Assembly (NCBI GenBank): GCA_012959765.1
Contig: DUCO01000030.1
Coordinates: 124,001-188,000, forward strand
Direction: 5' to 3'
DNA length: 64,000 bases
Origin: Dehalococcoidia bacterium
GTDB taxonomy: Bacteria; Chloroflexota; Dehalococcoidia; Lucifugimonadales; Lucifugimonadaceae
The translations under genes and the position numbers were made by a program. The notes beneath the pieces are model-generated. The model was not told the DNA's origin. It saw only the letters and a list, made by a program, of their open reading frames with translations, and did not search any database. Below are positions 22,983 to 26,443 of this stretch, one piece after another (within the stretch, counting starts at the first letter, position 1; every line of letters begins with the position of its first letter).

Positions 22983-23954
22983 ATGGCAAATAAGTTTGTA
23001 TTTCTTCCGCCGCAGTCCGATCTTTTCGCAAAGTGGATTCCCCGGCTGCTCGATAGCGCAACCGGCTGGGACATCGCCACGCCGAACACGGAAGAAGACG
23101 CTCTACGTGAACTCCCAGACGCCGATGCGGCGTACGGAACCATGACTCACGAAATGATCGCAGCTGCCCCCAAATTACGTTGGCTCCAGGCCCCCGCCGC
23201 TGCGCCAAACGCCGGCTATTACTCCGACGAGCTAATCGCCCACCAAACGAAGGTCACCAACTTTCGAGAGATCTACAACGACCACATTTCGATCCAGATT
23301 ATGGCGTACATCCTGAGTTTCACGAAGCACCTCAACATCTATCGTGATCAACAAAGCCAACACGAGTACGAGAAGCTGCCGGACCCCCACCACGATATCT
23401 TCCTGCCTGAATCCACTGTTCTAATCGTCGGTGTTGGTGGAATCGGATCCGAAACTGCACGAATCTGCAAAGCAGTCGGCATGCACGTTCTCGGCATCGA
23501 CGCACGACGCGAAGATAAACCCGAGTGGGTCGACGACATGTTCGGTCCCGACCAGCTTGACCAGCAGCTACCAAAAGCCGACTTCGTTGTGCTAACAATC
23601 CCGCACACACCTTCTACGGAAGGTCTCTTCGATTCCTCGAAGTTCGCACTTATGAAAGACTCGGCCATCTTCATCAACATCGGTCGTGGCATGACCACAA
23701 AACTCGACGACCTGAACGCCGTTCTCCGCTCAGGCGGGATTGCCGGTGCTGCACTCGATGTTTACGAAATCGAACCGCTTCCTCAGGATCACCCGTTATG
23801 GGACGCTCCAAACACGATCCTTACCCCGCACACAGCGGCAATAGGCGGTGCAAATCTGGAAGAACGCCGTTACGAAATAGTTCTTGAAAACTTCCGAAAG
23901 TTTGCAGACGGCCAACCCCTAAGAAACGAAGTAGACAAAGCCAACTGGTTCTAG
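22983..23954 (+). CDS. D-isomer-specific 2-hydroxyacid dehydrogenase
   Basis: VLIVGVGGIGSETARICKAVGMHVLGIDAR; INIGRGMTTKLDDL; DVYEIEPLPQDHPLWDAPNTILTPH. Confidence 0.92.
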   Translation: MANKFVFLPPQSDLFAKWIPRLLDSATGWDIATPNTEEDALRELPDADAAYGTMTHEMIAAAPKLRWLQAPAAAPNAGYYSDELIAHQTKVTNFREIYNDHISIQIMAYILSFTKHLNIYRDQQSQHEYEKLPDPHHDIFLPESTVLIVGVGGIGSETARICKAVGMHVLGIDARREDKPEWVDDMFGPDQLDQQLPKADFVVLTIPHTPSTEGLFDSSKFALMKDSAIFINIGRGMTTKLDDLNAVLRSGGIAGAALDVYEIEPLPQDHPLWDAPNTILTPHTAAIGGANLEERRYEIVLENFRKFADGQPLRNEVDKANWF

Positions 23955-24344: not shown

Positions 24345-25334
24345 ATGCCCGACCAAAACCGACCACTGGTCGTTCACATCGACGCAAAAGAATCGCCACT
24401 CGAACCCGAGCGAGCAGCCCTCGCCGGAATCGACTGTGAAATCATCTCGATTGCCGTCTCGTCTGAAGGTGAAATCATCGAAGCGGTCAAAGACGCCACA
24501 GTCATCCTCAACGACCATTCACCCGTCACTGCTGCGATGGTCGACCAGCTCACAAACTGCAAGCTGATCATCCGCTACGGCCACGGCTACGACACCGTCG
24601 ATGTCGACGCCTGCACCGAAGCTGGAATAATAGTCACCAACATTGCAGGGTCCACGTCGGAAGAAGTTTCCAATCACGCCCTCACGCTCATGCTGGCGAG
24701 TGCCCGTGAAATAAAGCGACTTGATCTGGCGACCACGTCTGGCAGGTGGGGCGAGGTCTACTCCCGCTCGATCCTCAACCACATCTATGGCGAAACCGTG
24801 GGCATCGTGGGCTTTGGGTGGATAGGCCGTGCGATGGCCCGCAAGTGCAAAGCCCTCGGCATGAACGTGCTGGTCAATGACCCGCACGTCGGTGAGCATC
24901 TGGCAGTCGAGTACGGCGTCGAGTTCACGTCGAAAGACGATCTACTGAAACGCTCCGACTACATCACGCTTCACGTTCCACATCTCGAAGACACACACCA
25001 CTTCATCGATGCAAACGCACTCGAAACAATGAAGCCATCCGCCTACCTCATCAACACGTCACGCGGCCCCGTTGTCGATGAAAAAGCCCTCGTTCACGCA
25101 CTCCAGAACAAGCAAATAGCCGGTGCCGGAATAGATGTCTACGAGGAAGAACCGCTTTCGCTCGACAACCCGATCCTCAAGATGGAAAACGTCATTTGCA
25201 CGCCCCATGTCGCCGGATCAAGCGAAGTCGGCTGGGAAATCATTCGACGACGTGCCGGTGAAGAAGCCGCCAGAGTCCTCCGCGGCAATCGCCCCAACGT
25301 AGTAGTAAATCCCGAAGTACTAGGCCGAATTTAG
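24345..25334 (+). CDS. C-terminal-binding-protein-like / phosphoglycerate dehydrogenase family 2-hydroxyacid dehydrogenase
   Basis: VGIVGFGWIGRAMARKCKALGMNVLVNDPHV; INTSRGPVVDEKALVHAL; DVYEEEPL. Confidence 0.92.
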   Translation: MPDQNRPLVVHIDAKESPLEPERAALAGIDCEIISIAVSSEGEIIEAVKDATVILNDHSPVTAAMVDQLTNCKLIIRYGHGYDTVDVDACTEAGIIVTNIAGSTSEEVSNHALTLMLASAREIKRLDLATTSGRWGEVYSRSILNHIYGETVGIVGFGWIGRAMARKCKALGMNVLVNDPHVGEHLAVEYGVEFTSKDDLLKRSDYITLHVPHLEDTHHFIDANALETMKPSAYLINTSRGPVVDEKALVHALQNKQIAGAGIDVYEEEPLSLDNPILKMENVICTPHVAGSSEVGWEIIRRRAGEEAARVLRGNRPNVVVNPEVLGRI

Positions 25335-25572: not shown

Positions 25573-25578
25573 TATAAT
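25573..25578 (+). promoter_or_regulatory. Putative -10 element for the structured RNA candidate
   Basis: TATAAT hexamer about 7 nt before the first predicted RNA segment; no convincing -35. Confidence 0.4.
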
Positions 25579-25584
25579 CCGGTA

Positions 25585-25818
25585 ATCGGTCTTGACCAAG
25601 TCCTTAATCGGGTTGGCGGCCGTGGACAGGAAAACTCTACTGTCCGGAGTTCGATTCCAAGAAGGAGGTGGTCTGTTTTAATGTCTAGTACCAAACGAGG
25701 TGTCCTACGCTAAAGTAGGGCGCCCTACCAGTAGGGCACCTCTAGAGTAGGGCCACCCGATCAGCAAACGTTTACGGCTATGCTGGTCCGGTGGTCCTAC
25801 TCGCGTCCGCCACCTTTT
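25585..25818 (+). ncRNA. Candidate structured RNA (pseudoknot plus long hairpin, leader-like mini-ORF), class unknown
   Basis: Closing helix AUCGGGU(U)GGC (25607-25617) with GCCACCCGAU (25752-25761); H-type pseudoknot GGACAG(25624-25629)/CUGUCC(25640-25645) with AACUC(25633-25637)/GAGUU(25647-25651); 11-bp stem AGGUGUCCUAC(25698-25708)/GUAGGGCACCU(25731-25741); terminator-like GGTGG..CCACC-TTTT ending 25818. No ORF of 60 aa or more here. Confidence 0.45.
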
Positions 25819-25939: not shown

Positions 25940-26443
25940 ATGATCCGACACTTCACAGCCACCGGCTTCGTCGTCAACAACGACGCCACCCTCCTGCACT
26001 GGCACAAAAAAGTTCAGGAATGGCTGCCGCCCGGCGGGCATGTCGACCCGAACGAAGATCCAGTTCAAACAACGCTCCGCGAGATCAAAGAGGAAACGGG
26101 ATTCGACGTCGAGATCGTGCCGACACAATCTTCGCTAATGATCGGAAATCTCGAGCAGGTTCATGCGCCACACAGCATCATGATCGAAGATGTCACTGAC
26201 GCAAAGCACGGCGAGCATCAGCACATCGACCACATCTACTTCACACGACTTCTCGGCGACGCGTCGGCCCCGTCTGGCGAACTCTCCGACCAGCCCGATT
26301 CCACAACGAAATGGCTCTGGGCATCTCTCGCCGATCTCGAGTCTGGCACAGCCTTCGAAACCCCAAACGGCGAACTACGCCCACCCCCTGAGGATGTCTT
26401 GAAGTTGGGTCCAGCGGCTATCAAGCACGTTTCGGGGCAGTAA
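25940..26443 (+). CDS. NUDIX hydrolase
   Basis: PPGGHVDPNEDPVQTTLREIKEETGFDV. Confidence 0.92.
   Translation: MIRHFTATGFVVNNDATLLHWHKKVQEWLPPGGHVDPNEDPVQTTLREIKEETGFDVEIVPTQSSLMIGNLEQVHAPHSIMIEDVTDAKHGEHQHIDHIYFTRLLGDASAPSGELSDQPDSTTKWLWASLADLESGTAFETPNGELRPPPEDVLKLGPAAIKHVSGQ

Follow-up and report, generated by a model that had tools for sequence, protein, structure and literature searches.

Within the 64,000-nt stretch of DNA analysed here (the window), the interval 25585–25818 carries no long open reading frame and is rich in internal complementarity, and the initial annotation left it as either a new small RNA or a cis-regulator. The question was which of the two it encodes. The comparative analyses described below are best explained by a stand-alone small RNA gene whose short open reading frame would be translated, a reading to which we assign a probability of about 0.8 on sequence evidence.

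Locus, folding and database searches

The interval is intergenic and coincides almost base for base with a single-copy RNA gene; the coordinates of all features are given in Table 1. It is flanked by a 2-hydroxyacid dehydrogenase gene (24345–25334) and a NUDIX hydrolase gene. Close to this dehydrogenase gene, at 22983–23954, lies another 2-hydroxyacid-dehydrogenase-like gene, recognised from its sequence. The minimum free energy of the interval was −105.9 kcal/mol (z = −6.7) and was equalled by 0/200 shuffles, while the reverse strand gave z = −3.5 in the shuffle test.

The Rfam scan proposed in the initial annotation was performed with Rfam 15, and no match at the gathering threshold was obtained for the window element or for 15 of its relatives. 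The best sub-threshold matches for the window, in a search extended to E = 10, had E-values of 2.7 and 3.7, i.e., chance level. ARAGORN gave no tRNA or tmRNA match in the window, and no description of such an RNA was found in the open-licence literature on SAR202. The initial view that the interval fits none of the common RNA classes was borne out, and the proposed small RNA gene at 25585–25818 is previously undescribed.

Table 1. Features of the predicted RNA gene and its surroundings (positions in the window).
Feature	Coordinates	Strand	Basis
Predicted RNA, ~220–235 nt, single-copy in genome	25585..25818	+	Ends inferred from −10 box and P3/T-run
−10 box TATAAT, predicted transcript start ~25585	25573..25578	+	Conserved across families
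5′ domain hairpin, stem 25624–25629/25640–25645	25624..25645	+	15 congeners
Shine-Dalgarno (SD) sequence AAGGAGGTGGTC, 12 nt complementary to 16S 3′ end (one G-U)	25662..25673	+	16S 3′ end from relatives
Mini-ORF MSSTKRGVLR, stop TAA	25681..25713	+	In-frame ORF conservation
P2 5′ arm = ORF 3′ half (GAGGTGTCCTAC), SD-like	25697..25708	+	Covariation
Inner palindrome GTAGGGCGCCCTAC, may pair alternatively with ORF end	25715..25728	+	GGCGCC or GGTACC kept in family
P2 3′ arm GTAGGGCACCTC, anti-SD-like	25731..25742	+	Covariation
P3, long closing hairpin, C-C mismatch 25758/25789	25745..25802	+	Both-side changes in 18/21 pairs
NUDIX hydrolase gene, neighbour, outside RNA	25940..26443	+	Pfam PF00293

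Distribution of the element

A DNA search found the element in 15 of the 18 other genomes of the genus, with 78–97% identity; in one further genome (G001) a small 3′ piece lies at a contig end, and the matches in other genera were weak. Model R2, trained on the window's family only, matched 54/76 genomes of that family, including genus g11, as well as 26 genomes from 13 other families. The loci found in other families share features that are absent from R2, namely the TATAAT box, a 5′ helix (P1) and the invariant loop TAGGTGTTC. The elements of genus g11 (L125–L131) carry a large insertion between the stop codon and the distal arm and are located near a HEPN-domain gene, not near NUDIX.

Model R3, built from the other-family elements, matched 55/250 genomes of the order with one match per genome, one of them weak and partial, and 29 of these 55 genomes had been missed by R2. 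About 18 families of the order carry the element in addition to the window's family. More than half of the order's genomes gave no match; in these the gene may be absent, the assembly may be incomplete or the copy may have diverged. Outside the order, R3 matched a single genome, G699, from another family of the same class (E = 2e-9, the E-values of both models being rough). The element of G699 (L171) encodes MSRSRQRCSL with the stop codon TAA and has a different loop. In a phylum-wide sample, R2 added little. One weak R2 match from another family of the phylum (L124, genome G634) has an SD sequence and an ORF, MDSSTKLSAVASLLE, followed by hairpins; its N-terminus is similar, and it may be distantly related. 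Conservation of the RNA gene thereby extends over the order, whose members are probably marine bacteria of the SAR202 type.

Conserved hairpins and covariation

Covariation among related intergenic regions, proposed as a check in the initial annotation, was found for the hairpins P2 and P3. The stem described there as 11 bp (25698–25708/25731–25741) in fact comprises 12 bp, starting from 25697. In the core alignment of 19 sequences, 97.8% of the cells were paired and 17 pairs had changed on both sides (0/500 shuffles), and the pairing fell to about 35–45% when the partners were slid. In 41 sequences from eight genera, P2 and P3 together had both-side changes in 25/33 pairs (0/500 shuffles), in an alignment that was fitted to the model and is biased toward the structure. 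A mix-and-match test, which exchanges arms among genera and does not depend on the alignment, gave p = 2e-5 for P2 across eight genera and 0/20000 permutations across 12 other families. In those 12 families, both-side changes were detected in 12/18 pairs of P1 and P2 (0/500 shuffles), and the permutation test for the post-stop segment gave p = 0.08.

The other-family elements have in common the TATAAT box, the 5′ helix P1, the SD sequence, a TTG-started ORF and P2. Outside the window's family the P2 loop is the near-invariant UAGGUGUUC, which begins with the stop codon. The lower 5′ strand of P2 (GGAGGUG) is mostly less variable in the other families than its partner, a hint that this strand may have a second role, e.g., pairing with the 16S tail.

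At the 5′ side, the initial annotation described an H-type pseudoknot. Its first stem was paired in 15/15 congeners (90/90 cells, 13 of them compensatory), but the second stem, AACUC/GAGUU, was paired in only 60/75 cells with no compensatory change, and the pseudoknot as such is not supported. Nor is the 10-bp closing helix proposed between 25607–25617 and 25752–25761: 7/15 congeners keep only 5–6 of its 10 pairs, two cells are compensatory, and the helix and the conserved hairpin P3 are mutually exclusive. P3, the dominant hairpin, had been missed, as had the order-wide conservation. Its C-C mismatch, flanked by C-G and G-C pairs, is kept in 40/41 sequences of the family and persists even in AT-rich genomes, where A-U pairs have taken over most of the remaining P3 helix.

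Promoter and transcript ends

The TATAAT box pointed out in the initial annotation proved to be conserved. In the window's family, 44/44 scored elements have it with no more than one mismatch, and 35/37 other-family elements have it exactly, compared with 7–10% exact matches in shuffles; in the other-family elements it is situated 48–77 nt before the SD sequence. At the opposite end, a run of at least four T follows P3 in 25/37 other-family elements. In the window only a distant TTTT (25815–25818) occurs after P3, and no immediate U-tract is present in the window's genus. P3 would usually act as an intrinsic terminator in most lineages, and as a weaker one in the window's family. The limits of the originally annotated interval are close to those predicted from the promoter and the terminator-like hairpin.

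Shine-Dalgarno sequence and mini-ORF

The sequence AAGGAGGTGG, starting at 25662 and already recognised as SD-like, is a nearly maximal SD, almost fully complementary to 16S rRNA. An SD is present in the scored elements of the window's family and of the other families. The mini-ORF, which had been mentioned only in passing and is below the length usually called by gene finders, emerged as a central conserved feature. It is in frame in 86/86 scored elements (65 distinct ORFs) with the same structural end point, a count that arises partly by construction because the scoring demanded a stop near the downstream anchor; five elements with an insertion or a divergent loop were left out. Codon-wise length changes and the interchange of start and stop codons are not products of the scoring rule. 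The lengths were 9, 10, 11 or 12 codons, differing by whole codons only, and the spacing between SD and start (5 to 12) changed by single bases. The start codons of these ORFs are TTG (49 elements), ATG (35) or GTG (2), and the stop codons TAG (60), TAA (19) or TGA (7). Examples of the peptides are MSSTKRGVLR, MSDSTNGGDLL, MNSSTGGVLL, LDINDKRGVLT and LDSSSRRCSG.

Measured against the GAGGUG strand, the window's family (RGVL) and the others (RRCS) use frames one base apart, with the stop codon staying in the P2 loop; the C-terminus of the peptide is therefore not the conserved item. What counts would then be translation itself more than the sequence of the peptide. Taken together, the comparative sequence data support a translated mini-ORF ending in P2.

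Proposed mechanism and alternative pairings

In the proposed mechanism, transcription would start at the TATAAT promoter and, in most lineages, end at the P3 intrinsic terminator. A ribosome would bind the nearly maximal SD, read 9–12 codons and stop in the P2 loop. As the second half of the ORF forms the 5′ strand of P2, a translating ribosome would have to unfold this hairpin, and the anti-SD-like ACCUC in the P2 3′ strand would become free. Because the ORF contributes to the very hairpin whose loop holds its stop codon, this link between translation and folding is directly testable. Two further steps are inferred tentatively, with the odds somewhat against them: regulation through the opening of P2, and an effector role for the RNA instead of the peptide.

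One form of such regulation would be an RNA gated by translation, in which ribosomes loaded at the near-perfect SD open P2 by reading ten codons. The exposed anti-SD-like strand would then act on other mRNAs; in a variant, the ribosome would be held at termination via the SD-like GGAGG located 6–7 nt before the last codon. We consider this specific scheme unlikely; if true, the RNA would tell the cell its translation capacity throughout an order of slow growers.

Alternatively, the product could be a micropeptide of 9–12 residues, with the structured RNA merely controlling its synthesis. The ORF stays in frame while its start and stop codons vary, D/N-S-S-S/T recurs near the N-terminus and the SD is nearly maximal, all of which would fit such a product. 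However, the C-terminal halves are lineage-specific (RGVL/GGAL vs. RRCS) because the frame is shifted relative to the RNA, and it is the non-coding loop segment GUGUUC that is nearly invariant, which leaves the micropeptide an improbable main product.

In the other families, the loop GGUGUUC is complementary to a single 16S site, GAACACC, in the region of helix 23 (16S of G041, L179); the chance expectation for a 7-mer site of this kind is about 0.1. Pairing with helix 23 was rejected as a general mechanism, as G019 from the window's family keeps the 16S site and that family has no GGUGUUC loop.

The mutually exclusive pairings of the GTAGGGC repeats noted in the initial annotation would correspond to a two-state switch, in which the 3′ arm of P2 pairs either with the end of the ORF, leaving the SD free, or with the SD, closing it. 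Both pairings exist, and in most of the window's family the two states lie within a few kcal/mol of each other; genera g7 and g12 form SD pairings of 13–15 bp. Covariation, however, gave little backing to this part of the claim. In the mix-and-match test, the proximal hairpin of the inner palindrome with the ORF end was without covariation support (p = 0.12), and the pairing of the SD with the P2 3′ arm was marginal in the window's family (p = 0.03) and unsupported in the 12 other families (p = 0.69). The SD-closed state is also mostly 3–13 kcal/mol worse in the other families, and genus g8 forms the SD pairing poorly. A general switch is therefore doubtful, and at best it would be a feature of the window's family. 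Pairing of the SD with the 5′ arm of P3 (GGUGGUC/GGCCACC) was likewise discarded: it is possible only in g1, g8 and g10, the other genera having no GGUGGUC after the SD.

Genomic context

The NUDIX gene follows the RNA in every scorable locus of the window's genus, g8 and g10 (locus L020 ends too early to be scored), while the upstream gene varies among these loci. More widely, NUDIX adjoins the RNA in most genera of the family, with the exception of g11 and g12, and in g7 it begins only 10–24 nt after P3. This arrangement would suit a cis-acting leader, with the state of P2 and P3 set by mini-ORF translation and with P3 attenuating NUDIX transcription; the mini-ORF followed by two hairpins also resembles a leader-peptide attenuator. 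In g12, however, a convergent DUF2267 gene lies between the RNA and NUDIX, and in g11 the RNA is far from NUDIX (G065, C1:1163492 vs. 2579457). In the other families, the RNA is mostly followed by an unrelated convergent gene (CinA, phosphotriesterase, Ffh-like), and no antiterminator with covariation was found. The contexts in g12, g11 and the other families indicate that the RNA is not a NUDIX leader in general, so that a leader has a low probability as the overall explanation, and the NUDIX gene is not a general target of the RNA. Within the window's family, where NUDIX usually adjoins the RNA, control by read-through may still occur. A divergent glyoxalase/VOC-type gene is located upstream of the RNA in 16 other-family loci.

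The initial choice between a new small RNA and a cis-regulator was right in outline, and the comparison decides mostly for the small RNA, given its own promoter, its usual own terminator, the convergent neighbours and its persistence without an adjacent NUDIX gene. A purely noncoding structured RNA with an accidental mini-ORF would agree with the strong conservation of the RNA structure but is highly improbable, as the ORF varies in length by whole codons only, its starts and stops interchange and the SD-start spacing is free.

Comparison with known systems

The stand-alone, apparently translated RNA gene described here is conserved in widespread, little-studied bacteria and is missing from Rfam. 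Like tmRNA (RF00023), it is structured, single-copy and equipped with a short reading frame; unlike tmRNA, it has an SD sequence and no tRNA-like domain. Identity with tmRNA was rejected, since a separate RF00023 gene is present elsewhere in 14/14 genomes checked.

With leader-peptide attenuators and the RNAs or peptides derived from them that act in trans, such as trpL and peTrpL of Sinorhizobium meliloti (PMC7298713), it shares a strong SD, a short ORF overlapping a hairpin and a subsequent terminator-like hairpin. The ORF shows signs of translation in the sequence comparison. Position as a 5′ leader was found in most genera of the window's family but not in g11, g12 or the other families, and of the exclusive antiterminator and terminator, alternative pairings exist, with weak covariation in the window's family and none elsewhere. 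Unlike these attenuators, the RNA is stand-alone in most lineages, has no downstream operon and no run of regulatory codons, and is conserved order-wide.

Small RNAs with a dual function include SgrS/SgrT, SR1/SR1P (for SR1P, PMC8152036) and RNAIII/hld. The present RNA has no sequence relation to them, and its ORF of just 9–12 codons ends in a conserved hairpin loop. It is like them in being a small RNA gene that, as predicted, has its own promoter and terminator, the latter weaker in the window's family, and a short ORF bearing the comparative signature of translation.
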